From: a virus
Length of the DNA: 20,219 nt
IMG/VR virus record: IMGVR_UViG_3300017760_000148
Location: 1-20,219 of that record
Reading direction: 5' to 3' (one strand)
Under the pieces are notes generated by a model. It was not told where the DNA came from. It made no database searches and saw nothing but the letters and a program-made list of their open reading frames with translations. A program made the position numbers and the translations under genes. This document shows positions 938-18,602 of the stretch, in pieces (positions within the stretch are counted from its first letter, which is position 1; each line of letters opens with the position of its first letter).

Positions 938-2433
938 AACGCAAACCTAAAGTGCATATTTGTTTGCGGTAATAATACATGCAGTTCGTCCTTTGCTCTT
1001 GTAGCGCCAACATAAAATACTCTTTGTTCATCGTCGGAGTCTTTCTGGTACGCGTTGTATGTTTTTAAATTCATATCTGTCGCAAGTAATACATTATCAG
1101 ATTCGCCACCTTTTGCACCATGAATTGTAGATATTTTTATGCGAGGTTTCTTAGTTATATCTTCTTCTCCAAGACCAAGACGTAAAAGATATGCTCTATC
1201 TTTAAGATTAATTTTGTCTAATGCTTGATGCCATTCACCAACACTGAAAGGACCTAGTAATACTTTCAAAGTATCCATATCGTATAAATGACTATCATTC
1301 ATTATATCTATTTTATCATTCGTTCCTTCTGCGACTTTCTTATAATAAAATATTTTCTTAATTGTTTTTTTGTCTACTGGATTACCTTCAACTAATTCGT
1401 TCCAACCTATAACTGCTTCAAACATTCTTTGAGGTATAGGTCTTACATTCTTTTTATATTCTTGTTTCTCATACCATAAACCTTGGTTACGGCAGGCCTC
1501 CTCTAGTTTACTTAATATAAATTTATCTCTTCCAAGTATTAACCAGTTGCCAATAGAAAGATCAACACTTTCAATGGTTTGGTGATACTTTAGTAAACCC
1601 TCTTCTTCTCTTGGTTCCCATTCTTTTTCAATTCTGTTTTTAGTTATACTAATTATACCATCAGCAAATTCCTGTATTTGTTTTTTAACTCTATAGGATT
1701 GAGGAAGTGTTATTTCTGTAGCAGGATATTCTATAAATCTTTCAACGTCTGCGCCCAACCATCTGTAGATTGCTTGATCGTCATCACCTGCGAGATAAAG
1801 TTTACCTGCTGTTGATGCAAAATGTTCTACCATAGACCATTGCAAAGGAGTCAAGTCTTGCGCTTCGTCTATAAAAACTACATCAAGTTGAGGTAATAAG
1901 TTTTCATTAACTGCCTCGTAACACATATCAGAATAATCAATGTAACCGTTGACCTCTTTGTATTGATCGTATGCTTGAGAAAAATATTCTAAGAACTTCC
2001 ATTCCACAACAGATGAGTCAACATACTTTTTGTAATGCTCTTGTAGTGGTATACCTCTTGCTCTAGCTAGGTTGTGATGAGTTAAGTATATATTGTCAGA
2101 TAAACCTGTTTCTTTATCTACAGAAAGTTTTGCTTTCAACCCTATCTTATCGCCAAAAGATTTGTACTGCACTTTACCCATGACAGCACGTCCTTCTAAA
2201 TTTATAGAATGATAACCACAAGAATGTAACGTAGAAAACCATTTGAAACTTTTTGCTTCAAGATCAAACTTTTCCATGGCTCTGTCTCTTGCTTCGTGTG
2301 CTGCTTTTCTAGTAAAAGAAAAATAACCTATCTTATCAATGTCATTTTTCTCCATCTCTTCTTCCACATAATTTAAAAGAGTTGTGGTCTTGCCTGTTCC
2401 TGGAGGCCCTAATAGTTTAATAACTTCAGCCAT
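934..2433 (-). CDS. UvrD/Rep-like superfamily 1A DNA helicase
   Basis: A 499-residue SF1 helicase with the full motif set in order: Walker A GPPGTGKT (9-16), motif Ia FSFTRKAAHEA (38-48), Walker B FIDEAQD (187-193), motif III LAGDDDQAIYRWLGA (214-228), motif IV LPQSYR (243-248), motif V ISTIHGAKGGE (434-444) and motif VI VFYVGATRAKDEL (472-484). It should be an ATP-driven 3'-5' ssDNA translocase acting in phage replication or recombination. At about 500 residues it is shorter than cellular UvrD or Rep (roughly 670-720), consistent with reduced 1B/2B subdomains. It lies directly downstream of the primase with a 1-bp TAATG junction, and a GAGG sits 5 bases before its ATG. No nuclease domain is visible. 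Helicase identity is certain; the biological step is inferred from context. Confidence 0.95.
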   Translation of the reverse strand: MAEVIKLLGPPGTGKTTTLLNYVEEEMEKNDIDKIGYFSFTRKAAHEARDRAMEKFDLEAKSFKWFSTLHSCGYHSINLEGRAVMGKVQYKSFGDKIGLKAKLSVDKETGLSDNIYLTHHNLARARGIPLQEHYKKYVDSSVVEWKFLEYFSQAYDQYKEVNGYIDYSDMCYEAVNENLLPQLDVVFIDEAQDLTPLQWSMVEHFASTAGKLYLAGDDDQAIYRWLGADVERFIEYPATEITLPQSYRVKKQIQEFADGIISITKNRIEKEWEPREEEGLLKYHQTIESVDLSIGNWLILGRDKFILSKLEEACRNQGLWYEKQEYKKNVRPIPQRMFEAVIGWNELVEGNPVDKKTIKKIFYYKKVAEGTNDKIDIMNDSHLYDMDTLKVLLGPFSVGEWHQALDKINLKDRAYLLRLGLGEEDITKKPRIKISTIHGAKGGESDNVLLATDMNLKTYNAYQKDSDDEQRVFYVGATRAKDELHVLLPQTNMHFRFAL

Positions 2434-3980
2434 TACGCCTCATACTCTTTCTTGTCTTTCATGTCGGGTATAACTGTTTCAATGTCCTCCATCTCGTCAA
2501 CAAATTCTGGAATGGTCCACACCTTTATAATTTTATCTTTGTCCCCAAAAGAATTCATTCGTAAACTTATCTTCTCACCTTTTACTTTATCTTTTAAAAC
2601 AAAAGTTATCTTAGTCCTGTTGAATGCATTGAACTTTTTCTTTTGCAAAAAGTCTTCCAAATCTTTTAGTAAAAAATGATGTTTACGATTAGTATTAGCT
2701 TCTCTATTTAACCATGGTTTACCTAAACTAATTTCTTCTTTAGTTTCTGCCGCACCTTTGTTTGTGCACCATTCTTTTAGATAGTCTATAAATATCTCCG
2801 TATTACTCGTGCCTGTTATACCAGGGCTATCGGTTGATTCACCGAGTAACGCATTGATTTTCTCTGCCCAACGTGGAGCAGGTATGGTTCCTGGCATAAT
2901 CTTTAACTGTTCAATACACGCTTTTTGAAAACGTGTTTGTAATTGAAGATCATCCGTTGTAAGCTCTAAGGTTGTGCCTCCATCTAAAGTCATAAACCAT
3001 ATAGGAGGTTCCACTCCAAATCGTTCTAGACCGGCAGGAGTAATCTCAAGATCAACTTTACCTTTACCATATTTACGTTTGTAACATTCTTTCTTATTGC
3101 AGTTAGATGCTAGAGGTTCTTTGCTACAACCATAGTCGTATTCTTTTTTAGTTATAGAATTAACTATAATATCAATTTCTTTTTCGTCTAATGGTGGATC
3201 ACATATATCTTCGTTGACCGTTAACAGTTTTAATTTAATCTTTTTCTCACCAGACTTTTGATAATAAACAGCTATGTTTGTCATTGTCTCATTACGACCA
3301 CCTTCAGGTATACCGTTTGAATGTAATGTATTTAAACATGGTGGACCACCCACAAAAAAATCTTCTAGTTTTAAATACTCTTTATCTGCTGCCTCTTGCG
3401 CATAAATATCATACAACGTGTAAAACTGTTCTATACTACAAGGATTACCATCGTCATCTAAAGCATATCTTTGACTATCTTCAGAATTAAAGTACGGAAG
3501 GTTTAGATAGTTTCCTGTTTGTCCCCTATCTAATAACAACTTAGTTTGTTTTGGAAATATCTCCGATCCCGCACAACCCAAAAAAGAAGCAAACTCCTTT
3601 AACTTGGACTGCACGAGACCAGCTTTCACAGGGACAGTGAAAAACATAAAGACATGAGCTCCGCCACTCTTTGATCTAAACACAATCAAAGGTAGCCCAT
3701 GCTTTCTAATCTTTTTAATTAACTCAATATGACTAAAACCATTGTAAATATCAATGTCAATACATCCCCACCTACAAGAATTGTTTTCATCAATTGGTAT
3801 AATTCCTAAACTTGTTTTGCCACTTAAATGATCTTCCCACAAATGTTCGGGCAGACCTTCGGGCTCTCTAATAATTTGATTTTTACCTTGCAGTTTACCT
3901 GCATCGTTTTTATCTTCAGGTATAAATTTACCATAGGCAATATTCAACCCACTAAATATCTCTATAAATTTGTCTTTCAT
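2433..3980 (-). CDS. Archaeo-eukaryotic-type primase (AEP) with PriCT-like and cysteine region
   Basis: A 515-residue primase or primase-polymerase. The AEP core spans about residues 50-200: motif I CIDIDIY with metal-binding Asp75 and Asp77, motif II SKSGGAHVF with His109, then EIFPKQ (140-145) and YLNLPYF (158-164). The core resembles the primase of TOTE-type systems and phage relatives. A PriCT-like helical region follows (about 212-280, including IPEGGRNETMTNIA). Cys215, Cys285, Cys294 and Cys299 form a C-x69-C-x8-C-x4-C set that could hold a metal or Fe-S cluster. The C-terminal 200 residues (NREANTNRKHHFLLKDLEDF and after) look like a small DNA-binding or regulatory region I cannot assign. 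It should make primers for the downstream polymerase. The start at 3980 has AGAGGG 5 bases upstream. It is the first gene after the terminator at 3996-4020, and its stop overlaps the helicase start. Confidence 0.85.
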   Translation of the reverse strand: MKDKFIEIFSGLNIAYGKFIPEDKNDAGKLQGKNQIIREPEGLPEHLWEDHLSGKTSLGIIPIDENNSCRWGCIDIDIYNGFSHIELIKKIRKHGLPLIVFRSKSGGAHVFMFFTVPVKAGLVQSKLKEFASFLGCAGSEIFPKQTKLLLDRGQTGNYLNLPYFNSEDSQRYALDDDGNPCSIEQFYTLYDIYAQEAADKEYLKLEDFFVGGPPCLNTLHSNGIPEGGRNETMTNIAVYYQKSGEKKIKLKLLTVNEDICDPPLDEKEIDIIVNSITKKEYDYGCSKEPLASNCNKKECYKRKYGKGKVDLEITPAGLERFGVEPPIWFMTLDGGTTLELTTDDLQLQTRFQKACIEQLKIMPGTIPAPRWAEKINALLGESTDSPGITGTSNTEIFIDYLKEWCTNKGAAETKEEISLGKPWLNREANTNRKHHFLLKDLEDFLQKKKFNAFNRTKITFVLKDKVKGEKISLRMNSFGDKDKIIKVWTIPEFVDEMEDIETVIPDMKDKKEYEA

Positions 3981-4024: not shown

Positions 4025-4804
4025 TTAGTATGAATTAGAAGTCGCTGCTTGCGCTTCTTCTTCATGTGACACCTTAACAGTATCTTTACCCACTGCTTGT
4101 GAGAAAGATTTAGCTGCTTCGTAAATGCCTTTATCACTAACGGGACCAATCTTTTGAATGTCCCACCCAAACCAAGTCCCTTTTGAATTGGACTGTGGCA
4201 CAGTTCTTAGCTTGTAAGTATGACTGTAAGACGGCGGTGTAAAAGGTCCGTTCTTACCTTGCATCTTCAAACCAAGCATCATGGAGTTCCACTTACGTGA
4301 AACTTTTCTTTGCGTAGCTTTCATAGTAATAAGCGCTTGCTCGTAACCATTTTCACTAACCACTAAGACATAATGATTTGCAGTCTCGTCGATGACGTTA
4401 CCATTAGCCATTCTGTTTTGATAGTTAGAATCACGAGGTGCTTGACTGATATCAAAATCAGCTCCATGTATTGCTACGGGTGCACCGCTGCCTTTACCGC
4501 GCTCGCCCCACTCTATAAACTCACGTTTATAATGGCAAGGTATAATGTCTATACCTTGTTCTCCGTCATACAAACTACCAGACACAGTATTGTAAATCAT
4601 GCCCGGCTCTGAACCTTCAACATAATTATTACTTGTCTTGTTGCATTGAGGAGAGAGTTGACTCAACACTTTCAAAAATGGAAGTGCTAAATCGTCTGTG
4701 GAACTTACGTTCTCAAGACCGCTCTGTGTTTCTGCGTCGGCCATAAACATATTTGTGTCTACTGACGCTATTTCGTTTTTCGTTGTTTTTGCTACTTTAT
4801 TCAT
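4025..4804 (-). CDS. Conserved phage replication-module protein, possible ssDNA-binding protein
   Basis: A 259-residue protein of a type often seen in phage replication operons. It has a flexible N terminus (1-38), then LALPFLKVLSQLSPQC (39-54), YVEGSEPGMIYNTVSGSLYDG (61-81), GIDIIPCHYKREFIEWGER (84-102), a middle region with NHYVLVVSENGYEQALITM (143-161), and a C-terminal part with KWNSMMLGLKM (171-181) and GTWFGWDI (209-216). The pattern suggests a single beta-rich (OB-like) domain, and the acidic C-terminal stretch HEEEAQAA would fit a ssDNA-binding protein tail. I do not see a decisive motif, so the function is inference. It follows the 194-aa gene with a 2-bp gap; the leader has AAGGA about 10 bases before the ATG. 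The terminator just after its stop may make this the most abundant product of the operon, as expected for a stoichiometric DNA-binding protein. Confidence 0.65.
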   Translation of the reverse strand: MNKVAKTTKNEIASVDTNMFMADAETQSGLENVSSTDDLALPFLKVLSQLSPQCNKTSNNYVEGSEPGMIYNTVSGSLYDGEQGIDIIPCHYKREFIEWGERGKGSGAPVAIHGADFDISQAPRDSNYQNRMANGNVIDETANHYVLVVSENGYEQALITMKATQRKVSRKWNSMMLGLKMQGKNGPFTPPSYSHTYKLRTVPQSNSKGTWFGWDIQKIGPVSDKGIYEAAKSFSQAVGKDTVKVSHEEEAQAATSNSY

Positions 4805-4806
4805 TG

Positions 4807-5391
4807 TTATTTTTTCCTTGTAACTTTTGCTTGCCTACCAACAAACGTTTTAAAAATATCCTCGGGTGGTAGTTCTGCACCTTTTTCGTGCAGTTCCCGA
4901 AGAGTTGCTTTCAGAGTCATGGGTTCAACTTTTAAATCTTGTTGAACCTCATACCCATTGGCGGTGGCTAACTTGGAAAATTCCAATGCCTTTCCGTCTT
5001 CGTTACGACCGAACCTAGCTGATATTTCATTCTTTATAATATCCCCTAGGTTATTGTCACGAAGCCATTGATATGCCGTTGCCCGTTCATCGGGATCCTT
5101 TGGCACACTAATTCCGTAAAAATTCTTTATTTCTATGGCACTTCCATCATTTAATTTAAGTTGTGTCAAGTTCTTTTCTCGCATCAGACCAGGTATTTTT
5201 TCATTCCTGACACTTAACATTTCTTCTTTTATGTGTTTCAATTGATTCTCGAGGGTGGATGCTTCGTTCTCAAGATCGACCAATCTTTGACAACAATCCG
5301 CGATGCTCAGGAGACCAGAGTCATTCACTCTCTCCAATTGATCAGTTTCAAAGTCTATTGTATCACCGTTATAATCGATTTCATTCATCAT
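4807..5391 (-). CDS. Conserved phage protein of unknown function, coiled-coil N-terminal half
   Basis: A 194-residue protein. Residues 28-66 form a probable coiled coil (heptad-like run LVDLENEASTLENQLKHIKE), followed by IPGLMREKNLTQLKLNDGS (66-84) and a beta segment AIEIKNFYGISVPK (85-98). An alpha/beta part with YQWLRDNNLGDIIKNEIS (107-124) comes next, then a basic end RQAKVTRKK. I recognise the overall pattern from phage genomes, always beside replication genes, but know of no assigned activity; an architectural or DNA-metabolism role is only a guess. Two adjacent ATGs (5391 and 5388) could serve; GGAG seven bases upstream favours the first. It overlaps the upstream gene by 11 bp (5381-5391) and is followed two bases later by the 259-aa gene. 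Confidence 0.75.
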   Translation of the reverse strand: MMNEIDYNGDTIDFETDQLERVNDSGLLSIADCCQRLVDLENEASTLENQLKHIKEEMLSVRNEKIPGLMREKNLTQLKLNDGSAIEIKNFYGISVPKDPDERATAYQWLRDNNLGDIIKNEISARFGRNEDGKALEFSKLATANGYEVQQDLKVEPMTLKATLRELHEKGAELPPEDIFKTFVGRQAKVTRKK

Positions 5392-5731
5392 CTTCTTTCT
5401 CCTTGTTGTAAAGGTCTATCGATAATGGATAATACTTACTAGCTTTACGATCCCATTTTAATAATTTTACTCTACCAAAATTTAAGTCACTTGCTACTAA
5501 ACACGATATAGCAATTAACCCTGGGTCTCCAGCAGCTATCAAGTAGTCCTCATCACTAAAACCTTTAAGTTTCTTTCTTAACGAGTTTATGGCTGCACCC
5601 GAACTTTTCATTAACTGAGCAAACTCAGAAAATAAAAATTTTACTTCACCGTATGGCAATGCTTCTAACACGTCATATTTAGGAATGCCGTCGGCAGTCC
5701 CTCTCGGTTCTTGTATACAGTATACAGTCAT
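5381..5731 (-). CDS. Conserved small phage protein of unknown function, first gene of the leftward operon
   Basis: A 116-residue soluble protein with no signal peptide or membrane segment. The most distinctive stretch is GDPGLIAISCLVASDLNFGRVKLLKWDRKASKYYPL (residues 68-103), a Gly/Pro-led helix followed by a KWDR-type beta segment that I recall from other phage replication modules. It ends in a very acidic tail, KEKEDDE. It is the promoter-proximal gene of the leftward operon: its ATG (5731-5729) is about 11 bp from the predicted transcription start of the leftward promoter. That leaves almost no 5' leader, and no Shine-Dalgarno is obvious (AAGAAAGTAATT). Its codons 2-7 contain the 15-bp inverted repeat at 5712-5726. 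Function unknown. Confidence 0.7.
   Translation of the reverse strand: MTVYCIQEPRGTADGIPKYDVLEALPYGEVKFLFSEFAQLMKSSGAAINSLRKKLKGFSDEDYLIAAGDPGLIAISCLVASDLNFGRVKLLKWDRKASKYYPLSIDLYNKEKEDDE
5712..5726. promoter_or_regulatory. 15-bp inverted repeat, candidate operator
   Basis: TGTATAC-A-GTATACA is a perfect 7-bp inverted repeat around one central base. It lies about 16-30 bp downstream of the predicted leftward transcription start and about 15 bp upstream of the rightward -35 box, so a bound dimeric regulator could affect both promoters. It also encodes codons 2-7 of the 116-aa protein. Operator function is inference; no repressor gene is seen in the window. Confidence 0.4.
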
Positions 5732-5741
5732 AATTACTTTC

Positions 5742-5772
5742 TTGACAAATTATATAGCATGTATTATATAAT
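5742..5772 (+). promoter_or_regulatory. Sigma70-like promoter for the SNF2 helicase gene
   Basis: A perfect -35 box TTGACA (5742-5747) is followed after 17 bp by TATATA (5765-5770), or after 19 bp by a perfect TATAAT (5767-5772). It is the only non-coding stretch upstream of the only rightward gene, which begins about 50 bp further on. The flanking DNA is highly AT-rich, as expected for a strong promoter. Confidence 0.7.
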
Positions 5773-5779
5773 AAATCAA
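5749..5779 (-). promoter_or_regulatory. Sigma70-like promoter for the leftward replication operon
   Basis: Read leftwards, TTGATT (5779-5774) is followed after 17 bp by TATATA (5756-5751), or after 19 bp by a perfect TATAAT (5754-5749). The boxes interleave with the rightward promoter, so the two polymerase footprints would overlap almost completely and the promoters should exclude one another. The predicted start near 5742 gives a leader of only about 11 bases before the ATG at 5731. Confidence 0.6.
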
Positions 5780-5813
5780 GAAAGAAAACTAATTAATTTT
5801 ATAAAGAAAGAAT

Positions 5814-5824
5814 TGGGAGGAGGG
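5814..5824 (+). promoter_or_regulatory. Ribosome binding site setting the start of the SNF2 helicase gene
   Basis: TTGGGAGGAGGG directly precedes ATG 5825 and carries two overlapping Shine-Dalgarno cores. The GGAGG nearer the 5' end leaves 4 bases to ATG 5825; the second core would suit the in-frame ATG at 5837. The reading frame is open back to 5711, but those upstream codons lie inside the promoter and the divergent gene, so they are not translated in this view. Confidence 0.75.
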
Positions 5825-7291
5825 ATGGCGCAAACCATGGACTACCGCTTTAAAACAAAACCGTATCAACATCAAATTGATGCGTTAAAAGTAAGTTATA
5901 AAAAGAAAAACTTTGCTTTGTTCTGCGAAATGGGAACAGGCAAGTCAAAAATATTATTAGACAATATTGCTATGTTATATGACGAAGGCAAGATTGAAGG
6001 TGCTATTATTGTTGCACCAAAAGGTGTTTACAAGAACTGGATAGAACAAGAGATACCTACGCATTTACCAGAACATATTGATTGCAGAACATTTCAATGG
6101 TCTGCTCCAAGCTCTAGATCTAAACAAGATCAAGAACTGTTAGATCAATTATTTGAACAAACTAGAGATCCGTCTTTGACTTTGTTTGTCATGAACATAG
6201 AAGCCTTCTCATCTAAACCTGGAATGGAAGCTGCTGAAAAATTTTTAATGGCGTACAGAGCATTGATGGCAATTGATGAAAGCACTACAATTAAGACACC
6301 GTCAGCCAAACGCACCAAAAATATAGTGTCCGTTAGCCGTTATGCGTATTACAAACGCATCATGACGGGTAGTCCTGTCACCAAAAGTCCGTTGGATTTA
6401 TATTCACAATGTGAGTTTTTAAACGAAGAATTATTAGGGCACAGCTCTTACTATACATTTAGAGCACGCTATGCCAACATGCAGACAATTAACGTTGGCG
6501 GTCGTTCGGTGAATATTGTTAGACCTAACAATAGTTATCGTAACCTTGGAGAGCTGTCAGATATTGTTAGTAAATTTTCCTATCGAATATTAAAAGAAGA
6601 CTGTCTTGATTTACCAGACAAAGTATTTGAAAAAAGAATAATTGAAATGACACCGGAGCAACAACGTGCGTACACAACTATGAGACAGATGGCGCTAGCA
6701 GAACTTGATGGTAAACTTTGTTCAACTGTAAATGTATTGACACAACTTTTACGTCTTCATCAAATCACTTGCGGTCATTTAAAAACAGATGATGGGTCAG
6801 TTACACATTTAAAAAACAATCGATTAACAGAATTAATGTCCTTGCTAGAAGAAACCGAAGGCAAGGTCATAATATGGGCAACTTACGTTTCTGACATAGA
6901 AAATATAGTCGCTGAGTTAAAAAAAGCTTACGGAGAAGCCTCTACAGTGGCATATTACGGTGCAGTGGACCCTAAGGTCCGCCAGAAGCAAATCACTCTG
7001 TTTCAAGAGAAAAATGGCCCTACACGCTATTTCGTTGGAAATCCACAAACTGGAGGGTATGGAATCACCCTTACAGCGGCTAGCACGGTAGTATACTACT
7101 CAAACAGTTATGACTTGGAAAAAAGATTACAATCAGAGGATCGAGCGCACAGAATTGGTCAAACAAACAAAGTTACATACGTTGATTTGATATGTGAAAA
7201 AACTGTTGATGAAAAAATTGTAAAAGCATTACGCAACAAAGTTAATATTGCAAACGAAATACTAGGTGAAGATCTTAAAGATTGGATTTAA
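5825..7291 (+). CDS. SNF2-type superfamily 2 helicase
   Basis: A 488-residue SF2 ATPase, the only gene on the plus strand. Motifs in order: PYQHQIDAL Q-like region (13-21), Walker A EMGTGKS (35-41), Ia IIVAPKGVYKNW (61-72), DEST in place of DEAH (151-154), motif III TGSP (181-184), motif V GGYGITLTAAS (410-420) and motif VI QSEDRAHRIGQ (436-446). The RAHRIGQ box and linked C-terminal lobe mark the SNF2 family, which translocate on dsDNA to remodel protein-DNA complexes or displace proteins. In phages such enzymes are thought to aid replication, recombination or transcription; which one is unknown here. The start at 5825 is chosen for its strong ribosome site; 5837 is the alternative. It has its own promoter and ends in a 3-bp overlap with the stop of the convergent 75-aa gene. 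Confidence 0.93.
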   Translation: MAQTMDYRFKTKPYQHQIDALKVSYKKKNFALFCEMGTGKSKILLDNIAMLYDEGKIEGAIIVAPKGVYKNWIEQEIPTHLPEHIDCRTFQWSAPSSRSKQDQELLDQLFEQTRDPSLTLFVMNIEAFSSKPGMEAAEKFLMAYRALMAIDESTTIKTPSAKRTKNIVSVSRYAYYKRIMTGSPVTKSPLDLYSQCEFLNEELLGHSSYYTFRARYANMQTINVGGRSVNIVRPNNSYRNLGELSDIVSKFSYRILKEDCLDLPDKVFEKRIIEMTPEQQRAYTTMRQMALAELDGKLCSTVNVLTQLLRLHQITCGHLKTDDGSVTHLKNNRLTELMSLLEETEGKVIIWATYVSDIENIVAELKKAYGEASTVAYYGAVDPKVRQKQITLFQEKNGPTRYFVGNPQTGGYGITLTAASTVVYYSNSYDLEKRLQSEDRAHRIGQTNKVTYVDLICEKTVDEKIVKALRNKVNIANEILGEDLKDWI

Positions 7292-7515
7292 AGAAGTTGT
7301 TTGAAAGCAAAAATAACACCGAGCAACATTCCAATGGCTCCAAACGAAGCCGCTGCTCCCATGAACCACGTCATCATCTGACGCAACTCAAACGTGTGTT
7401 TGTTTATCGTGTTTTGTTGTGCTTGCAACGTATCTAATTTTTCTTCAAACACTTCATAGCGCAGCTGACATTCAGCAAGGTGTGTTTTTAATGCTACTTT
7501 TGTTTCATCGCTCAT
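7288..7515 (-). CDS. Small membrane protein with coiled coil, holin candidate
   Basis: A 75-residue protein at the end of the virion operon. Residues 1-48 are hydrophilic and probably helical or coiled-coil (HLAECQLRYEVFEEKLDTLQ), and residues 51-71 form one hydrophobic, Gly/Ala-rich membrane segment (FMGAAASFGAIGMLLGVIFAF) ending FKQLL. Small phage proteins with this ECxxRY-coil-then-helix layout are often listed as putative holins or tail-associated membrane proteins. Its place after the last virion gene suits a late lysis function, but no endolysin is seen nearby, so holin is inference. The start ATG overlaps the stop of the 1507-aa gene (ATGA, 7512-7515) with AAAGGA upstream. The stop codon overlaps that of the convergent helicase gene, with no terminator visible between them. 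Confidence 0.7.
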   Translation of the reverse strand: MSDETKVALKTHLAECQLRYEVFEEKLDTLQAQQNTINKHTFELRQMMTWFMGAAASFGAIGMLLGVIFAFKQLL

Positions 7516-10500
7516 GCAAGATCCTTTAAGAATTCATCATTTTCAATAATTCGTTGTCTGGTTGTTACCGGATCAGCTGTCTGTGTCGCAACCGGCGGCA
7601 CGGCCGTTTGATTGCTTGCCATCTGTGCTACCGGTTGGACTACTTGATTAGGCATAGTTAAAGGTGCAGTTGCAGTATTTGTTTGAGGAACTACTGATGA
7701 TTGTTGCATATTTTTTTGATATTGTTTTTCTCTTTTAAACCTAATGTAAGCTTTAACTTTAGCATTTGTCCATCCTAAAGGCATGTTTAAATAATCCATT
7801 TGTATTCTTTGCATTTGATTATAAAGTTTTCTCATTTCGTTTCCTATTTCAATATTAGATAAACCTCTGTTTTTTAATATCTCAAAGATCCTGCCTTTTT
7901 CAGAAAAATTAGGTAAACTTGCTGCATTAAATTTTCCATCTAATAATAATGTAGGATCAGCAGCAACTAGTCCTGATCTTCCTGCCATGTATTCGTATAT
8001 CTCTTTGTCGTCAACTCCCCATAGTCTAGCAGCCTCTACAGTTTGACTGAATTGATTAAACACTTTATACTCTTCTAGTTGTTGATCCTCGTAAGCTTTA
8101 AGTATTTGTTCGTTAGTCATGTTAGGGTCAAAAGATTCTTTTGCCATTTTTGCTCTGGTGTTTTCTAATGTTTTTGCAAAAGCTCCCACTTCATATTTTC
8201 TAAAACTTTTATGAACATTAACTGTGTATTCTCTAACACCCATAAAAGTAGCCATAAACTCTGTTCCAATGTCGTAAGGTAAACCTTGATTAGTGTAAAT
8301 TAAATTTTTTCTATCTTTTTCAAATAAATTATCTGCTGCTTTTATAAATTTGTCTGCTTGTGTAAATACACCAGGGACAAAAGCTTGTTTAGCAATGTGA
8401 AGCATTGATTTTGTTAGTTTCTCACTAGTGTCATCATGTTGATAATAAATTGTTTTACCATCAATAGTTTCACCTCTTCTGGATACTACATCCGATATAG
8501 CACTAGCAACTATTTCTCCACTTGCAAAAGGTTGAATTACTGTTCCAAATGCAGTTAAAACAGAATCAAAAAATATTTGAGAACCTGTATCTCCCGTGGC
8601 TTTTCCTTCCTGAATAGCATCCAAAGCTTTATAAAAAGGGCCAAGCGTAATTTGAGCATGAGGGAACTGATAGCCTGTAGCCACATATTTAACAATAGTA
8701 TCTCCATCTTTATTTATGGACACATCAGTAATAGCCAAAGGTGCGTCTTTATTCCACTCAGGAGTAAAAGCGTCTTGAAATTTATCCATCATGTTATCTG
8801 ATATGCCGTATAAGTTTTGTGCTGTTTTTCCTGCAACATAAGGTAAAGTTAATGCGCTAAATAAACCCATTAATCTTCCAGCACCTTTTTTTCTAATACC
8901 AGGATTGCTTGAACCTAATTCATTTAAACCATATTTTATTAAATTAGCTTGAGTTCTAATCATTTCTGCTGGAAACGATATAAAGTTTCCAAGAGGTACT
9001 CTTCTCATATTTTTAACAAGAGGAGAGACAGCGTCGTAGTTTGGATAAACGTTTTTAATTATATCCGCTGATATTTCTCTAACCGCCTCATCTAATTGAG
9101 ACTCTGTAAGTTTAGGTAAAGACCGTAAATCGCTTAAACTTGGTTTTCCACCTGTTGTTCTTACAATAAAACCTTCAACATCAAATTCCCTACCGAACAC
9201 TTCTCTATAGTATTTAACTATGTCATCAAGATTTCTCATGTGAGGTCTTGTTAATGATTTTTCAAATTCATACCCATATATTTTCCAAATATCATCTCCT
9301 GCTCTATATATGTCAATTGCTTTTTCCATAAAAGGACTGTTGTACAAACGACTGAGTAAACCATCAGTGTCAACTATAAGAGGGTTTGCCTTCAAAGAAT
9401 CTTTAATTAAATAATCTAATTCTTTAACAACCATGTTGGTATTTATGACACCTTTTTCTATGTACTCGTCTATTTTACTTTTCATGATAGCATCATCGTA
9501 AGCTCCGTTGGGAGCAAAAACTTCTTTAAATATAAAATCAAAAGCTTGTTTGAAACTTGCACCGTTTCCAACGTGTCCTGCAGCTAACGCAAATGTTCCT
9601 GCTGAAGTTACGTTTCTGATTTGAGTTGTTGGACTTAAAACTGTTTTTTCTATTTGAGAAAAAGATTTTGCAGCTAAATAACTTTTAATAAGAGGAAAAG
9701 ATAAAAAACGGTCTGTCCATAAAACTCCGCCCATTGTTTCAATAGATTCTTTCATTGCAGGAACTGTCCATTTACCTTCTAAAGAATTTGGTATTTTAGA
9801 ATTACCAACACCTTTTAAACTTATTTGTTGTAGTCTTGTTAAAGCTCCTGTTGCTTTAAATAAATCATCAGGATTATCAAATATAAATTTTCCTTGCCCT
9901 ACTCTAGCTAAGTCTTCATACATATTAGTTTTAATGACTGCATCAGTTAGTTCCATTATTGTGTTTGTTAAAGCAACTTGAGGATCATCTACTTTTCCAA
10001 ATAACTTAGACACGATAGGAGGAAGTTCTTGTCCTTTTCTTAACCTATTCATTGATTGAATGCCTCCTATTTCATCTAATTTGTCATTTGCTAATTTTAT
10101 AAGTTTAGCAGATGACATATTTTCACCAGAAGCTAAGTCTTGTAAATCTGTAATTCTTTTTATTGCATCTCTTTCTAAAACTTCTTCATACAGTTCATCT
10201 AAATTTCCTTGGATTTCACCAGAGTCTAATTGTTTTCTTAAAGCTTCTTTTTGATCTAAAAGACGTTTATCAAAACGAAGGATACTTTTAAAAGCTTCAA
10301 CAACCTCTGCATAACTATCAGGCTTTAAAGTATAAGAACTATCATCAACTATTTTAAAAGATGTAGTAACGTACTCGTGCATATTTTTTGCGACATTTGT
10401 TATTAAATCATCTTCAGGTAAATTTAAACGACCATACATTCTTTTTATTGTTGCCATTTCTCTTTTAATTTTTGCTGCCGCTATTTTAAAATCTTTTGAT

Positions 10501-12035
10501 GCTCCTTTAAATAAAGGAAAAGACTTTTGACTAGGGTTTAAAACGTATTTTATTAAATCTTCTGTCATTATTTTTTTTTGCCATCTAGAACCATCTCGTC
10601 CAGACTGTGTCATCTCATCGACTGTTTTATGTAAAGAATTACTCATGATTTTAAAATTACCTATGATAGCAGACTTTACTTTTTCTATTTGAGCTATGGC
10701 TCTTCTTTGTATGGCTTTTGCTTCAGGAGTAAGCGCTTCATTAGTTCGAACAGCTCTTAGCACGCTATCTATTACACCAATTGTTTTTTGAATTCCTGTA
10801 TCTAGTCTTTGTCCTTTTTTATTTATAAAACGTATTCCATTCGGATTGTATAGTTTCCAATCTTTAACTGAAGGTATTCTTCTAACACCTGGCATTTCTC
10901 CTATTTTTTGTCTAAAAGCTTTTGCTAATCTAACTGTTTGAGGTAGACCTGTTTTTTCAGAAGCAAGCACAGCTCTTCCAACATCAAATGTCCAACCTAA
11001 AGCTCCCTTTCCTTTACTCGCTGCTGATAATAAATAAGGCGATGCAAATTTTCCAACACCATTTATACCTACACTTAGTCCTCCGACAACTAAAGGCGCT
11101 TCTAAACCAAAACGTGCTTTTTGCCCTAACACTGCAAGAGCTCTGTCTTTAGGAGAAAGGTTAGGATCACGAGGATCAACCATGTCTTCTGCTAATTTAA
11201 AACCCATGTATTGTTCTGTCAAAGGAGATAAAGCTTGAAGCACTGTGCGGTCTGTGCTGGTAGCAACTAAAGGTTCTCCTATCAAAGCAGGAGTTGCATA
11301 TTTAACAGTTTGTTGAGCTATTGATGATGTAATAGGAGCTTTAGCAGCTATCATACCAGTTGTTGTTGCAGTTTTTTTCTTTATTATATTTTTTACTTTT
11401 TTAACAACAGGACGTGCTAAAAGCGCTTCCCCTATTTTGTATCCTCCTATAAATTGCCCAGCAGTTCCGATAAAAGCACTGCCACCTGTTGTGTTAATAC
11501 TTGGAAAATCTTCATCTATTTTTTTTAAAACTTGTGTTTGAAGATCAACTCCTGTTGCTTTGCTTAAAGCATATGAACCAAGATCTGCCGGAACTCCTAC
11601 TAAAGTCTCGGAAAGTCCTTTACCTGCTTTCATAAAAGCGTCGCCTGTACCATAGGCAACTGTTCCCAAACCATAAGCTAGATTACCAAAAAAATTATCT
11701 GGGTAATCTTGCATGGCTTCTTTTGGAGATTTATCTCTTTCAAACACATCGTAAGAAACTGCATTTAATCCTCCATTTATTCTTTTGTGTCTTTCAAAAG
11801 CTGCTTGATTTTTTGCGTCTACTTCTGGATCTCCTGTTTCCTCTACAAAAGTAGAAAATGTTCCGTCTTTTAAATTTAAATTTTTTACAACTAAATCTTG
11901 ATTTATTTTAGGATCAGGATTGCCTGCTAAATATTGTTTGTATAAATCTTTATATATTTCGGGGTGATCTTGGTACACATGAGCATACCTCATTAAAATT
12001 CTTTTATCTTTATCTGTTAATGTGGTCTGAGCCAT
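7512..12035 (-). CDS. Giant (1507-aa) virion protein, probable DNA-ejection or internal virion protein
   Basis: The largest protein of the window. I see no catalytic motif and no lytic transglycosylase domain such as T7 gp16 carries. Residues 110-340 are rich in Gly/Ala hydrophobic patches interrupted by basic runs (VVKKVKNIIKKK at 210-221), suggesting membrane interaction. Residues 420-680 are largely charged helices. A conserved-looking core follows, with SPTTQIRNVTSAGTFALA (801-818), AYDDAI (845-850), RAGDDIWKIYGYEFEKSL (911-928) and GNFISFPAEMIRTQAN (1016-1031). The last 65 residues are Gln/Pro/Val/Thr low-complexity. The QxRN and FPAEMIRT patches recall large proteins of marine phages and polyvalent-type proteins. 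Size, position at the end of the virion operon and membrane-prone segments suggest it is packaged and delivered with the DNA. AAGGAG lies 8 bases before ATG 12035. Confidence 0.6.
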   Translation of the reverse strand: MAQTTLTDKDKRILMRYAHVYQDHPEIYKDLYKQYLAGNPDPKINQDLVVKNLNLKDGTFSTFVEETGDPEVDAKNQAAFERHKRINGGLNAVSYDVFERDKSPKEAMQDYPDNFFGNLAYGLGTVAYGTGDAFMKAGKGLSETLVGVPADLGSYALSKATGVDLQTQVLKKIDEDFPSINTTGGSAFIGTAGQFIGGYKIGEALLARPVVKKVKNIIKKKTATTTGMIAAKAPITSSIAQQTVKYATPALIGEPLVATSTDRTVLQALSPLTEQYMGFKLAEDMVDPRDPNLSPKDRALAVLGQKARFGLEAPLVVGGLSVGINGVGKFASPYLLSAASKGKGALGWTFDVGRAVLASEKTGLPQTVRLAKAFRQKIGEMPGVRRIPSVKDWKLYNPNGIRFINKKGQRLDTGIQKTIGVIDSVLRAVRTNEALTPEAKAIQRRAIAQIEKVKSAIIGNFKIMSNSLHKTVDEMTQSGRDGSRWQKKIMTEDLIKYVLNPSQKSFPLFKGASKDFKIAAAKIKREMATIKRMYGRLNLPEDDLITNVAKNMHEYVTTSFKIVDDSSYTLKPDSYAEVVEAFKSILRFDKRLLDQKEALRKQLDSGEIQGNLDELYEEVLERDAIKRITDLQDLASGENMSSAKLIKLANDKLDEIGGIQSMNRLRKGQELPPIVSKLFGKVDDPQVALTNTIMELTDAVIKTNMYEDLARVGQGKFIFDNPDDLFKATGALTRLQQISLKGVGNSKIPNSLEGKWTVPAMKESIETMGGVLWTDRFLSFPLIKSYLAAKSFSQIEKTVLSPTTQIRNVTSAGTFALAAGHVGNGASFKQAFDFIFKEVFAPNGAYDDAIMKSKIDEYIEKGVINTNMVVKELDYLIKDSLKANPLIVDTDGLLSRLYNSPFMEKAIDIYRAGDDIWKIYGYEFEKSLTRPHMRNLDDIVKYYREVFGREFDVEGFIVRTTGGKPSLSDLRSLPKLTESQLDEAVREISADIIKNVYPNYDAVSPLVKNMRRVPLGNFISFPAEMIRTQANLIKYGLNELGSSNPGIRKKGAGRLMGLFSALTLPYVAGKTAQNLYGISDNMMDKFQDAFTPEWNKDAPLAITDVSINKDGDTIVKYVATGYQFPHAQITLGPFYKALDAIQEGKATGDTGSQIFFDSVLTAFGTVIQPFASGEIVASAISDVVSRRGETIDGKTIYYQHDDTSEKLTKSMLHIAKQAFVPGVFTQADKFIKAADNLFEKDRKNLIYTNQGLPYDIGTEFMATFMGVREYTVNVHKSFRKYEVGAFAKTLENTRAKMAKESFDPNMTNEQILKAYEDQQLEEYKVFNQFSQTVEAARLWGVDDKEIYEYMAGRSGLVAADPTLLLDGKFNAASLPNFSEKGRIFEILKNRGLSNIEIGNEMRKLYNQMQRIQMDYLNMPLGWTNAKVKAYIRFKREKQYQKNMQQSSVVPQTNTATAPLTMPNQVVQPVAQMASNQTAVPPVATQTADPVTTRQRIIENDEFLKDLA

Positions 12036-12046
12036 TTAATAGCTCC

Positions 12047-13120
12047 TTATCCATCACCGAATGTTGCTTCAAAATCGTCTGTGTCATCAGCCTGTGTCTT
12101 TAAAATATCTTGAATAGCTTGAAGATCAATATTTAAACTATCACCGAACATACTTTGCATAACAGAGAAAGTTTGTTGAGCGGCTTGCGTAGGATCAGTT
12201 CCTATACCTCTACTTAAAGAATTTAATAATGAAGCAGCAAAATCAAGTTGACTGTTTTGAGTTTTAAATGCTAACGCTAATGCCTGTTCAGGAGTTTTAC
12301 CACCTTCGTTTATTAAGAACGCATAGTTTTTCATTATTTCACTAGGAGCTTGATTAGCAAGTTTTTGTATATCTATTCTAGTTGCATCTTGTCCCAAAGC
12401 TATTTGTAATCTGGTTGCCAGATCATCTCTTCCTAATTGAATTCTAGCATCCGCTTGTTGATTTCCAAGATCTAATTTTAATATTTCTATTTGTGCAAGT
12501 TGATCCGCTGCAGCGTCGGCTCTTCCCTCTAATCTAAATTTCTCTAATTGAGCCTCTGAGTTTTGTAGTAAGCCAAGTGTTCTGTTGTATTCTTCTTCCT
12601 CTTGCTTAAGTCTTAATGCTTTATTAGTCTCAGCTGTAGTTTGTCTAGCATCTCCATAAGCTATACCTAAATCTAAAAATTGATTAGGACTTCCAACTGT
12701 TCCCGCTGGTATAACTTCTTGTCTTTTCTTTAAAAAATTTAAACTGGCATCAGCTAAGGTATCTAATCCTGTTCTTCCATATTGAGAATAATCAACAGGT
12801 GTAAGATATTTTTCTCTCAAACTTCTATCTTTTAAAAATATATCTTCAGCACTTTGAGAAGGTGCATTAGAAGAAAGCATACTAACTCTATTTTGTACTG
12901 GTGCAGACTCATCTACAGGACCTGTTCTACTTCTTAAAGCTATTAAAGCTTGTTCTTTAGAATCAAGTTTATCTCCTCGTTGAACACTACCTCCTGGTCT
13001 AAAACCCACACGTCCACCTGTTGCGTAACCTGTTCTGTACTGCAACCCACTTGTAATACCAGAACTACGATGATCGTGTTTCGTTGTTTGAAATAATTTT
13101 CTAGTTAATGTTTTATCCAT
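12047..13120 (-). CDS. Putative inner-virion or ejection protein with GGRVGF motif
   Basis: A 357-residue protein starting MDKTLTRKLFQ at 13120. The frame is open to an earlier ATG at 13162, but that start would overlap the upstream gene by 41 bp, while 13120 follows its TAG after one base and matches the compact layout. Near the N terminus is YATGGRVGFRPGG (residues 32-44), also present in altered form in the 448-aa protein. Residues 150-240 are helical and charged, with a Gln-rich coiled-coil character (EEEEYNRTLGLLQNSEAQLE). The C-terminal part is helical and ends in an acidic tail, DDTDDFEATFGDG. I know no enzymatic function. Position between other presumed inner-virion proteins suggests a role in the DNA-delivery apparatus. 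The Shine-Dalgarno is weak, so translation may depend on the upstream gene. Confidence 0.6.
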   Translation of the reverse strand: MDKTLTRKLFQTTKHDHRSSGITSGLQYRTGYATGGRVGFRPGGSVQRGDKLDSKEQALIALRSRTGPVDESAPVQNRVSMLSSNAPSQSAEDIFLKDRSLREKYLTPVDYSQYGRTGLDTLADASLNFLKKRQEVIPAGTVGSPNQFLDLGIAYGDARQTTAETNKALRLKQEEEEYNRTLGLLQNSEAQLEKFRLEGRADAAADQLAQIEILKLDLGNQQADARIQLGRDDLATRLQIALGQDATRIDIQKLANQAPSEIMKNYAFLINEGGKTPEQALALAFKTQNSQLDFAASLLNSLSRGIGTDPTQAAQQTFSVMQSMFGDSLNIDLQAIQDILKTQADDTDDFEATFGDG

Positions 13121-13121
13121 G

Positions 13122-13895
13122 CTATCTACCAAACATACTACTACCAAGACCTGCAAGCCCACTTAGTATAGGATTTGTGTTTTGATAAGTTGAGAATGAT
13201 GGCGCACCTTGTAAGGCTCCAGCAAACTGTCCAAGTCCGTAGAATGGTGTTTGATATTGAGCTAAGTTTTGTGCTCCTAAAATCTGTCTTTGGTTTTCTC
13301 CCTGACCATACAATTGATTCACATCTTTAAACAAAGAATCTTGTGCCATTCTTCCTAATGTTCCAAACTGAGCTCCAAGTTGGCCTTGTTGTTGTGCCGC
13401 TTGTTGCGCTGCTCTTTGAGCCATGTTGTAGCCGCCTGAATAAATATTACCTAATGTTTTTGCCGCTGTGTCTGCTTGACCTCTTTGTAGTTCAGCTTGC
13501 ATAACCGCATTACGAGTTCCTGAACCTGCAAACGATCCTGACTGAATTGCACTTTGTTGTTGTTGAGCTTGTTGTGCGCCAAACATACGATTTAAATCTG
13601 TCATTGTAGTTGCGGCTTGTTGTTTAAGATAAGGATTTAAATATTGTTGCGCTGCACCTGGGCCTGTACTTGCCAATGCTTGTTGTGTTGCTCTAGCTCC
13701 AGCAGTTAAAAATGGTTGGTAAGAACCAATACCCGCTTGAGTCATGGCCATAGCATCTAACTGTTGCTGCTGTAGATTAGGTGCTAATTGAGATCCTGTC
13801 GGTACATTCTTCGGGTTAATTAAAGATTTGTAACCCTCTATAATACCACCTGGGGCAGTAAATGCACCCGATACTGTTTCGTCAATAGTCGCCAT
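13122..13895 (-). CDS. Gln/Ala-rich virion protein, probable ejection or tail-associated
   Basis: A 257-residue protein dominated by Gln, Ala and Gly. The recognisable part is YLNPYLKQQAATTMTDLNRM (85-104) followed by QSAIQSGSFAGSGTRNAVMQAE (112-133). This layout, a YLNPY helix then a small-residue (G)SFAGSGxR turn and a long Ala/Gln helix, is a common phage virion family found beside internal-core or ejection genes. The Gln runs (QQQQ at 40-44 and 114-117, with more near 160-170) suggest helical bundles. The C terminus is Gly/Ser-rich (LSGLAGLGSSMFGR). No signal peptide or enzyme motif is present. It starts with a TAATG junction (13893-13897) to the preceding gene, with GAAGGG upstream. The assignment rests on pattern and context, not on a catalytic feature. 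Confidence 0.6.
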   Translation of the reverse strand: MATIDETVSGAFTAPGGIIEGYKSLINPKNVPTGSQLAPNLQQQQLDAMAMTQAGIGSYQPFLTAGARATQQALASTGPGAAQQYLNPYLKQQAATTMTDLNRMFGAQQAQQQQSAIQSGSFAGSGTRNAVMQAELQRGQADTAAKTLGNIYSGGYNMAQRAAQQAAQQQGQLGAQFGTLGRMAQDSLFKDVNQLYGQGENQRQILGAQNLAQYQTPFYGLGQFAGALQGAPSFSTYQNTNPILSGLAGLGSSMFGR

Positions 13896-15241
13896 TATGC
13901 TTGCCCTTCTAAATTGTTCATTAGATCATACATTCTTTGTGCACCCACGTCTACACTTCCACCACCTGCCGCACGAACAGCGTCCGCTGTCATTACAAAT
14001 TCATTTTTTGATAATCTTGCCGGTACATCATCAGCTCTTTCTTTAGCTCCAACAGGAATAAAACCACCCCCTCTGTAATCCATTTCCATTGCAGGATCAC
14101 TACGGCCACCGTACGCTAATTCAATCGGCCCACCTTGAGCTGCGGTTTCTCTTTTTTCGTATCCATACATAGGAGAATCATTTTTACCTTCAGGATTAAT
14201 TCCTTCTTCTGTAATTTGTTTTATAATATCTTCTAGCCCACCACTATCTTCTTGTACTTCTCTAGAACTTCTTAAACTTTTATATCTTTGTGCACGCGCT
14301 TTCATAGCATCATTTTCACTTGCAATACTACCTAAAAATCTTAGTAAAGCTGCGTTAGGCCCTACACCATCTCTAAAACCAATACGTCCACCATTTGCAT
14401 AACCAATTATACCTCCATAAGCAGCTGTCTGCATAGGAGTTTGACTATAAAAATCTTTATAACCACGATTACCATAAACGTCAGCGTAGTTCTCATAACC
14501 AGGGCCTTGAAATTTTTCATTCTCTTTATTTTGTTCTTTTTGCCCAAAATAGTTTAGACCAAAATTTAAAATACCTTCTGCTAACCTAGGATTATTTTTT
14601 AAAAAATTAAATCCTTTTCCAAATAAACTACCTATACCTCCTCCACCAGAAGACCCTCCTGAAATCATATCCGGAACTCTAAGATCAGAACCTTTTTTAA
14701 ATATGTCAAGAACATTTGATCCTGTTCCTCCAGGTTTAAATAAAGAACCAATCCCACCTTGTGTACTAAAAGGATTAGTAAAGGACGCGCCTCCTGGAGC
14801 AAAAGGATTTCCTTGTAAGTTACCAATTCCTCCACCAACAACTCTTCCTGCTTGCCCTAAAGCATAACTTTTAGCTCCTGATTTTAAAGCTCCTGTAATA
14901 CTGCCATCTTTATCAAAACTAGCTCCAGCAGATAAGGCTGCTCCAATTGCTGGATTAAACATACTGACAATAGGAGCTATTTTTCCTGCAACAGCAGAGA
15001 CTTCATTAGGTATAATTTTTCTAACTCGTTCTTTTATTTTTTTAGTTACTTTAGAAACTTTTTTAACAACTTTTTTAAAGAAATATGTAGGAATACCCGC
15101 TTCGGTTAACTCACCAGAACCACCATGAGCTTTTAACAAACGTGCTTCTTCTTCATTAATAAATGCTAATGATTCACCTTCGGGTGCAAATTGAGATAGT
15201 AATTTTCTAGCTTCTGCTATTGACTGTTTTTTATTAACCAT
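13895..15241 (-). CDS. Putative inner-virion protein with basic, membrane-prone N-terminal part
   Basis: A 448-residue protein starting MVNKKQSIAE at 15241, one base after the preceding TAA; the longer frame to 15283 would overlap the upstream gene. Residues 53-76 are a strongly basic amphipathic stretch (FFKKVVKKVSKVTKKIKE), followed by a hydrophobic segment (82-107), then long Gly-rich low-complexity sequence (135-210). Two GGR motifs follow: YANGGRIGFRDG (281-292) and AYGGRSDP (376-383). The C terminus has ADDVPARLSKNEFVMTADAV (403-422) and AAGGGSVDVGAQRMYDLMNNLE, a highly conserved ending in a family of phage virion proteins. The basic plus hydrophobic region suggests it may insert into or cross the host membrane during DNA delivery; this is inference. 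The stop overlaps the next ATG (TAATG). Confidence 0.65.
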   Translation of the reverse strand: MVNKKQSIAEARKLLSQFAPEGESLAFINEEEARLLKAHGGSGELTEAGIPTYFFKKVVKKVSKVTKKIKERVRKIIPNEVSAVAGKIAPIVSMFNPAIGAALSAGASFDKDGSITGALKSGAKSYALGQAGRVVGGGIGNLQGNPFAPGGASFTNPFSTQGGIGSLFKPGGTGSNVLDIFKKGSDLRVPDMISGGSSGGGGIGSLFGKGFNFLKNNPRLAEGILNFGLNYFGQKEQNKENEKFQGPGYENYADVYGNRGYKDFYSQTPMQTAAYGGIIGYANGGRIGFRDGVGPNAALLRFLGSIASENDAMKARAQRYKSLRSSREVQEDSGGLEDIIKQITEEGINPEGKNDSPMYGYEKRETAAQGGPIELAYGGRSDPAMEMDYRGGGFIPVGAKERADDVPARLSKNEFVMTADAVRAAGGGSVDVGAQRMYDLMNNLEGQA

Positions 15242-15242
15242 A

Positions 15243-15926
15243 TTAACTCGCTGCATAGAGTGGCATGTAATATGTGGTGCCACCTTGTTTAACTTTTATG
15301 TATCTTGATATTGAGCCAACAGAGCCAGTTTCTATACTACTGCCTGATCCTGCTGTACCATCAAAATCAATAAACGGCGCATCGGTATCATCTTGATCCA
15401 ATGTAAGGCAGGGATTGCCACTTGACCCTGAGTATTGTAACTTAGCGGCAGTACCGGAAGCGTTAACAGTTAAACCTGTCAAGGTTCCTACACTAGTTAT
15501 AGCAGTCTGCGCAGCTGTGGTCAACGTTAAATCTGACACATATGTTTTAATTCTTGACGCTGCAACCTTTTTATTGTCACCATTTGCATACGTTTCTGTG
15601 CCTAGATTTAAGTCTAACATAAAGAATACATCATTATTATCTAAGGCGTCACCTTGAGTTGTAGCTCCAGCAAGATCTAATTTTGTTATAGCTATGTCAG
15701 CTGACGCGCCAACTTGTGCGTTGTTCACTGTTCCTGAACCGATTGCCGGTGCCTCAAAACCAGTATCAAGGTCCAAATCTTCTGTTGATACAGCACGATC
15801 TATTTCAAGAATGTTTTGCTCAATTACACTAGTTAGTAAATTTATATGTTCACCCAAAGCGTCCGTTGTCGGTTGTCCGTCGAGCGCTGTAAATCGTGGT
15901 AATGATCTAAATCGTGATCCTGACAT
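15243..15926 (-). CDS. Tail appendage or fibre-like protein
   Basis: A 227-residue protein. The N terminus (FRSLPRFTALDGQPTTDALGEHINLL) is a helical, probably attachment-type segment. The middle has VNNAQVGASADIAITKLDLAG, a sequence style often seen in phage tail-fibre and appendage proteins. The region around 140-180 has ITSVGTLTGLTVNASGTAAKL (143-163), the typical short beta-repeat of fibre proteins, and the end is Gly/Ser/Thr-rich (ISRYIKVKQGGTTYYMPLYAAS). It is likely a trimeric appendage or a fibre connector, acting at the host surface or at the tail. It shares a 1-bp TAATG junction with the 501-aa tail gene upstream in transcription. No strong Shine-Dalgarno is seen, so reinitiation is likely. 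Confidence 0.6.
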   Translation of the reverse strand: MSGSRFRSLPRFTALDGQPTTDALGEHINLLTSVIEQNILEIDRAVSTEDLDLDTGFEAPAIGSGTVNNAQVGASADIAITKLDLAGATTQGDALDNNDVFFMLDLNLGTETYANGDNKKVAASRIKTYVSDLTLTTAAQTAITSVGTLTGLTVNASGTAAKLQYSGSSGNPCLTLDQDDTDAPFIDFDGTAGSGSSIETGSVGSISRYIKVKQGGTTYYMPLYAAS

Positions 15927-17431: not shown

Positions 17432-17853
17432 TAGCTTACCCTTATTAATGCTGTTGTCGCTGACGCTGTTGGTAATGTTATTGTTAATGTGCCACTAGAT
17501 ACTGACTTTGTAGCACCAAAGTCTATAACTGCTATAGCTCTATTACTAGCAGATGAATTGTATATCAAAGCTCCTGCAGCATCACTGATTGTTGCACTTG
17601 TAAAAGATACATTATCGAAATCAACAAAAGCTGTAGTGCCGGACAATGATACAGCAACGTTTGCAAGTGTTGCACCGCCAGCCGTGTACCCTGTGCCGCT
17701 TGATTCGTTTGTTGTAGAATATGCTGTAGTCGTTGCGCCAAGTGTAGCACTTGATGTAAACAATGCCATCTTCAATGTATGCCCATCAAGGTCATGTAGA
17801 CCTTGTAGAAGTTCTTGTTTGAATGAATTACATAGTGCTTGTGTTATTGCCAT
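17431..17853 (-). CDS. Conserved virion-type protein of 140 aa
   Basis: A 140-residue protein with SFKQELLQGLHDLDGHTLKMALFTSSATLGATTTAYSTTNE near the N terminus, followed by SSGTGYTAGG and a Ser/Thr/Ala-rich beta-strand series to the end. This SFKxELLxGxHxF-like opening followed by KxALyTSSATL and GTGYTAGG is a pattern I recognise from many marine and environmental phage tail operons. It probably forms a small beta-sandwich of the virion, but its position is unknown. A clear AAGGAG precedes the ATG at 17853, the strongest ribosome site in this stretch, so it may be expressed at a higher level than its coupled neighbours. Its TAA overlaps the ATG of the 501-aa tail gene. The frame is rich in Ala/Thr/Ser, which creates a long false reading frame on the opposite strand. 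Confidence 0.7.
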   Translation of the reverse strand: MAITQALCNSFKQELLQGLHDLDGHTLKMALFTSSATLGATTTAYSTTNESSGTGYTAGGATLANVAVSLSGTTAFVDFDNVSFTSATISDAAGALIYNSSASNRAIAVIDFGATKSVSSGTLTITLPTASATTALIRVS

Positions 17854-17862
17854 AATATCTCC

Positions 17863-18275: not shown

Positions 18276-18298
18276 TTCTATACCTTTCGTAAGTTATA

Positions 18299-18601: not shown

Positions 18602-18602
18602 A

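Follow-up and report, generated by a model that had tools for sequence, protein, structure and literature searches.

Reciprocal overlapping divergent promoters predicted between a SNF2-family helicase gene and a replication operon are conserved among related phages

How might two divergent transcription units of a phage be started from one short intergenic gap? The question is raised by a 38-bp segment (5742-5779) of the 20,219-nt virus record IMGVR_UViG_3300017760_000148, which was analysed over its whole length (positions 1 to 20,219) and will be referred to as the window. The original prediction described the segment as self-symmetric, with overlapping divergent promoters that control the two halves of the genome and could form a built-in switch between the helicase and the replication operon. 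The genes flanking the element are divergent, with 94 nt between their start codons. On the minus strand, the gene of a Pam3 gp32-like protein (5381-5731; Pfam PF23992, 5.2e-27) is the first of a leftward operon that continues with the genes of a Pam3 gp33-like protein (4807-5391; PF23984, 2.2e-28), a Pam3 gp34-like protein (4025-4804; PF23977, 3e-68), a primase (2433-3980; AEP-TOTE and PriCT_1 in Pfam) and a UvrD-type helicase (934-2433; Pfam). On the plus strand, the gene of the SNF2-family helicase (5825-7291; Pfam SNF2-rel_dom 8.8e-20, Helicase_C 8.2e-13) starts with ATG at 5825 or 5837, and a purine-rich AGGAGG is located at 5818-5823 just 5' of this start. Rightward of the element, the helicase gene stands alone before genes of convergent orientation begin; every large ORF from 7512 to 20189, some of them with virion-protein matches, is encoded on the minus strand. 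Control over the two halves of the genome was therefore not borne out, as the rightward promoter faces the helicase only, with the structural genes encoded in the opposite direction. At this junction of phage 023Pt_psg01, too, only the helicase gene and one small ORF point this way. The terminator-like hairpin with the most pairs in the window is found on the plus strand at 7581-7603, approximately 290 nt past the helicase stop and inside the gene opposing the helicase, and could end the rightward transcript.

The complete element (5737-5784) reads CTTTCTTGA CAA ATTATATA GCATGTAT TATATAAT AAA TCAAGAAAG. On the plus strand, a TTGACA -35 hexamer (5742-5747) is followed after a 17-bp spacer by the -10 TATATA (5765-5770; alternatively TATAAT at 5767-5772 with 19 bp), and the rightward transcription start is predicted at 5777, 7 nt past the -10. 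The leftward -35 TTGATT (5774-5779, minus strand) overlaps this predicted start and is combined, again with a 17-bp spacer, with TATATA at 5751-5756, preceded by the extended -10 motif TGC (5759-5757); the leftward start is predicted at 5744. The interleaved divergent -35/-10 pairs are thus present as originally proposed, and each -35 is placed on the predicted start region of the other promoter. Both strands carry sigma70-like elements at a spacing of about 17 bp within one polymerase footprint, with the two -10s 8 bp apart and not overlapping and the predicted starts 33 bp apart. GAAAG forms the 5' end of both predicted leaders, at 5737-5741 on the minus strand (CTTTC on the plus strand) and at 5780-5784 on the plus strand. 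Probably, the segment represents an overlapping divergent promoter pair for a host sigma70-type RNA polymerase, the two orientations of which would exclude each other.

The self-symmetry turned out to be larger than the 38 bp first described, comprising 5737-5784 (48 bp) with 18 of 24 positions paired and arms of 9 and 8 bp (CTTTCTTGA / TCAAGAAAG). When the 105-bp intergenic region was dinucleotide-shuffled 5000 times, this number of pairs was reached once; in 40 whole-window shuffles, it was never reached. The 38-bp segment alone, however, shows only 13/19 pairs, a number that is equalled or exceeded (13-15) by further stretches of this length in the window. A score of 18/24 pairs was also observed for a 48-bp dyad at 10076-10123, within an ORF of 1507 aa.

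In the AT-rich DNA of the window, promoter-like matches alone mean nothing. A generic promoter scan, which demands a T ending the -10 and does not have either claimed promoter among its matches, yielded 66 matches compared to 62.7 ± 8.3 in shuffled sequences. A simple sigma70 matrix ranked TTGTCA-18-TATACT (5748-5719) as the top leftward site of the window rather than the claimed one. This site was set aside as operon promoter since its predicted start is located inside the gp32-like gene; as nearer homologues share the N-terminus of the protein (MTVYCIQE) from its first residue, transcription from there could not supply the full gene. Nevertheless, the preference of the matrix for another site together with the weak TTGATT is evidence against the promoter pair proposed here. 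A search of the window against Rfam gave no match. Given these limits of the symmetry, of the promoter scan and of the matrix choice, our case rests on conservation and not on the window alone.

Related loci were fetched using the gp32-like, helicase and gp34-like proteins as queries. A helicase match was obtained for 317 of 369 loci, 305 of which included the N-terminus and at least 150 nt upstream. Together with five added reference regions, by which named phages are partly counted twice within their own cluster, they form 83 clusters at 85% helicase identity (an earlier clustering used 90%); the 57 clusters not represented in the first locus set were treated as held-out. A first look had printed 75 of 80 helicase loci, namely those with usable upstream DNA. 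Within 150 nt upstream of the helicase, the strict pair TTGAC-N21..31-GTCAA was present in 49/83 clusters and in 39/57 held-out clusters, counts that do not represent independent events as the clusters share ancestry. In 50 shuffled sets, the mean was 0.02 and the maximum 1, and the opposite motif order occurred once. The placing of overlapping divergent promoters between helicase and replication operon is thus supported by a reciprocal pair that related phages have kept. Spans from TTGAC to GTCAA amount to 33-41 bp in all but three pairs, varying in 1-bp steps, and the helicase starts 7-39 nt past GTCAA in the 49 elements. Using a looser pair definition, as required for the window, 52/83 clusters and 240/310 regions were positive. 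Even by the relaxed definition, the reciprocal pair is absent in 31/83 clusters, including those of HTVC027P, HTVC023P, DSL-LC04, Pam3 and LKO4. A few representatives (DSL-LC04, L084 and L092) have start codons misplaced by start calling or in the record, and no TTGA..TCAA pair was found for these three with up to 300 nt upstream. The rightward -35 had been considered the better copy, which is correct for the window but not in general: the rightward hexamer is TTGACA in 39 of the 49 strict elements (TTGACT in the other ten) and the leftward one in 33, and the leftward TTGATT of the window is weaker than the GTCAA found at the reciprocal place in 49/83 clusters.

The arrangement was also recovered when the best rightward and leftward sigma70-like promoters were chosen independently of each other. 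They interleave with a span of 33-41 in 48/83 clusters (shuffles: mean 5.7, maximum 12) and in 37/57 held-out clusters (mean 4.0, maximum 9), and the predicted starts of the 48 interleaved clusters are 28-39 bp apart. Anchoring on the best rightward TTGA -35 (63 clusters) located GTCAA 33-41 bp further on 47 times and elsewhere four times. Joint scoring of pairs placed 44/83 clusters at a predicted separation of 26-36 bp compared to a mean of 9.9 and a maximum of 13 in shuffles, whereas the separation class of 7-25 bp was not enriched (14 versus 17.9 in shuffles). Compared to 2000 shuffles of the interior with unchanged arms, -10 scores at spacers of 16-18 bp were higher in every case on both strands (2.75 versus 0.69 and, on the other strand, 2.09 versus 0.54). 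Scores at spacers of 10-12 bp, where the -10 of the other strand is located, also beat the shuffles, in part because TATATA reads alike on both strands, and the -10 assignment is accordingly blurred in this AT-rich DNA. Averaged -10 profiles by spacer were noisy and were discarded.

In a quick helicase tree (SH-aLRT only), the arrangement is present in two separated clades. Five sister clusters (L049, L051, L303, L304 and L310; helicase 71-78% identical to that of the window) seem to share a -10 between both orientations, a reading drawn solely from the agreement of the five with one another; for those among them with 16/16 spacers at a span of 51, the predicted start separation is 18 bp. In other clades (represented by L086, L089, L093 and L104), which do not have the element upstream of the helicase, CTATTAG[CT]-type motifs were noticed, five in L093 (both orientations), one in L089 and none by pattern in L086 and L104; the latter two contain similar GGTAATAGG and CCTATTGGC words by eye. 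The nearest named relatives by helicase identity are phage 023Pt_psg01 (61%) and Pelagibacter phage HTVC027P (56%). Helicase and gp32-like genes are divergent in both of these and in DSL-LC04; in Pam3 (ON014755) and Yuavirus LKO4 (KC758116) they are adjacent and codirectional. From these gene orders, we infer that in the divergent lineage the helicase gene has been flipped at its original location with respect to the gp32-33-34 cassette, the divergent promoter having arisen along with this inversion.

Viral contigs were in addition scanned with the DNA pattern TTGACA-N21..31-GTCAATAGAAAG, without any protein query. At least 120 stretches matched; among the matches listed, 80 became loci, 78 of which had enough downstream DNA to be assessed, and in 70/78 the same strand carried the helicase gene at a distance of 0-40 nt downstream. 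One further locus (L430) represents the same helicase junction read from the gp32 side, two (L392 and L438) look like chance matches in coding DNA, and L379 and L408 are ambiguous. In L401, L425 and L441 (perhaps also L379), the element is followed by small genes of another kind. L401 and L425 have it between divergent genes, with a nearby large ORF that is terminase-large-subunit-like by eye. The reciprocal -35 module thus seems to be reused at a second divergent junction. When 12 long records were searched for copies elsewhere, nine contained a match to the pattern and eight an AT-rich copy placed at the helicase junction; further matches in these records were about as frequent as those of the reversed pattern used as a control.

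Symmetric arms around a variable interior might be taken as an operator bound by a dimeric regulator of phage or host origin, the resemblance to promoters being secondary. The arms are more constant than the interior (43-67% interior identity in same-span groups, with arm identity fixed by the search pattern), the dyad is nearly complete in the clade of the window, and the element recurs at the second divergent junction. The -35 arms are also more constant than the -10s, which is unusual for sigma70 promoters and speaks against the promoter reading. The half-site spacing is not fixed, however: spans changing from 33 to 41 bp in single base pairs would rotate the half-sites round the helix. Interior symmetry over 50 elements was at chance level (0.362 versus 0.342; 38 of 300 shuffles equalled or exceeded the observed value), leaving the dyad conserved in the arms only. 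On this ground, the palindrome was rejected as a conserved feature. The proposed alignment of related phages hence confirmed the reciprocal -35/-10 geometry but not the symmetry of the whole segment, which appears peculiar to a few clades. An operator would also have no need for hexamers resembling a -10 on each strand at a spacing of 16-18 bp, and a Pfam search of ten window proteins revealed no DNA-binding regulator domain. The single-bp span changes, the chance-level interior symmetry and the -10 scores are better explained by two promoters each with its own spacing than by one rigid dimer site, and we consider an operator unlikely. Far less probable still is a replication origin or another DNA-processing site formed by the AT-rich palindrome. 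The element does precede the first of the replication genes, and the records of relatives open beside it, probably by convention, but its conserved parts match -35/-10 spacing, its palindromy is not conserved, and a similar element occurs at another junction.

The sequences beyond the arms were inspected as well. CTTTC is found within 14 nt 5' of TTGAC in 30/49 elements and GAAAG within 14 nt 3' of GTCAA in 32/49. GAAAG as a locus-specific signal was rejected, since an enrichment was seen in front of other genes as well, both in 023Pt_psg01 (7/79 versus 1.6 expected) and in HTVC027P (6/40 versus 1.3); AGGA is commoner before the genes of both phages (38/79 and 17/40). GAAAG is probably part of an extended Shine-Dalgarno sequence, a reading for which the 3' end of the 16S rRNA is the basis. 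In one clade (L103, L113, L116, L158, L164, L168, L172, L174, L175, L185, L186, L189, L191, L192, L200, L201 and L203), a conserved hairpin AAGGCCC-NNNN-GGTGCCTT begins the predicted leftward mRNA just after the reciprocal -35. In its alignment 98.3% of cells are paired, and one pair is changed on both sides in 3/17 sequences; possibly, the hairpin acts as a 5'-end stabiliser or attenuator.

The gp32-like protein was considered as a helix-turn-helix (HTH) repressor and dismissed, as its predicted structure alternates strands and helices with no HTH evident by eye. The alpha/beta AlphaFold model (pLDDT 86) consistently, though weakly, matched ring nucleases and cyclic-nucleotide sensors of the CARF/SAVED type (best Foldseek E 0.024; highest VIA-align Z 7.7, values below 8 possibly reflecting a common arrangement), and the CRISPR-associated transcription factor Csa3 is among the weak CARF/SAVED-like matches. 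A search with PADLOC in the follow-up of this protein gave no match. Judged by the model, a cyclic-nucleotide-binding counter-defence protein is a possible role for the gp32-like product.

How would the predicted promoter pair work? Host RNA polymerase would recognise the element in either orientation, a rightward polymerase producing the mRNA of the SNF2 helicase and a leftward one the mRNA of the replication operon with the gp32-like gene first. One polymerase would occupy about the whole site, the two orientations would exclude each other, and initiation would be shared between the two units. Mutual exclusion is expected because each -35 covers the start region of the other promoter; the firing of both promoters, the start positions and the occlusion are what we infer from sequence. 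According to the main text of the paper on HTVC027P, this phage encodes no RNA polymerase and relies on that of the host, and no start sites were found in this text, which does not name the helicase and gp32-like genes (PMC12753301). Exclusion of polymerases at overlapping promoters has a published basis in two studies (PMC12825309, PMC4207663). In the first, bidirectional promoters of E. coli show little competition at basal strength, but strengthening one -35 sharply reduced transcription in the other direction at four of the five promoters tested (PMC12825309). As near-consensus -35s are found on both sides of the phage sites and competition sets in in E. coli once one -35 is improved, we predict by analogy that the phage sites sit in the competition regime.

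This competition might in principle amount to a true regulatory switch, one promoter winning early and the other later. The suppression of the opposite transcript by a stronger -35 in E. coli and the presence of two near-consensus -35s in most relatives would fit, and pLS20 does use overlapping divergent promoters in a switch (PMC4207663). For such a switch, however, feedback or a regulator is required, pLS20 being an example, and none was seen at this junction. The built-in switch of the original prediction is not supported, as neither neighbouring gene product looks like a regulator by Pfam or, for the gp32-like protein, by its predicted model, and a switch appears improbable. Conceivable, though still the lesser prospect, is mere compaction, in which the same two promoters are ordinary ones packed into a short gap and their interference is not selected. 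The short intergenic gaps, both in the window and between GTCAA and the helicase start in relatives, argue for compaction, as do the different placing of elements in some sister clades, such as the five clusters with a shared -10, and the weak competition of basal bidirectional promoters in E. coli (PMC12825309). Spans clustering at 33-41 bp across deep divergence and the recurrence of the same arrangement at a second junction argue against it. It is conceivable, though less likely than not, that promoters with a reciprocal -35 on the other's +1 form a distinct selected bidirectional class that partitions host polymerase between helicase and operon, always competing and regulator-free, reused at the second junction and swapped in the sister clade for a shared -10 form with bidirectionality kept.

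The bidirectional promoters of E. coli tested so far have a shared -10 and show little competition unless one side is strengthened (PMC12825309). The phage family, which occurs in phages including relatives of isolated pelagiphages, offers natural near-consensus -35s on both sides in a different geometry kept over large divergence. Exclusion of polymerase by polymerase as a selected regulatory device could thus be tested with the 48-bp fragment and about 50 natural variants. In the literature searched, with most subscription papers outside its scope, no paper on promoters of these phages was found.

Divergent phage promoters are known from the lambda-type PR/PRM switch region, and in comparison to lambda neither a divergently encoded repressor gene nor repeated operators were seen here. 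Closer is the Pc/Pr pair of pLS20, with fully overlapping divergent core promoters likewise on a mobile element (PMC4207663). In Pc/Pr, however, each promoter has its -35 at the position of the other's -10 and its -10 at that of the other's -35, whereas in the phage element the -35 lies on the other's start region; Pc/Pr is moreover governed by a repressor and a DNA loop, and at the phage junction no regulator was seen. The bacterial bidirectional promoters described by Warman, Grainger and colleagues share with the element a polymerase-sized site, divergent transcripts (here predicted), pseudo-symmetry and the expectation of steric exclusion. Their starts, however, are 7-25 bp apart around a shared or overlapping -10 (PMC10268837, PMC12825309), compared to predicted separations of 33 bp in the window and 28-39 bp in its relatives and to the separate -10s of the window. 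We therefore do not file the window element in the published class, although by analogy it should work alike; the five sister clusters with the putative shared -10 do resemble that class as described. Unlike in the published promoters, the symmetry of the window element resides in near-consensus -35s, and what related phages have kept is, as far as it can be read from their DNA, a conserved new geometry of overlapping divergent promoters.
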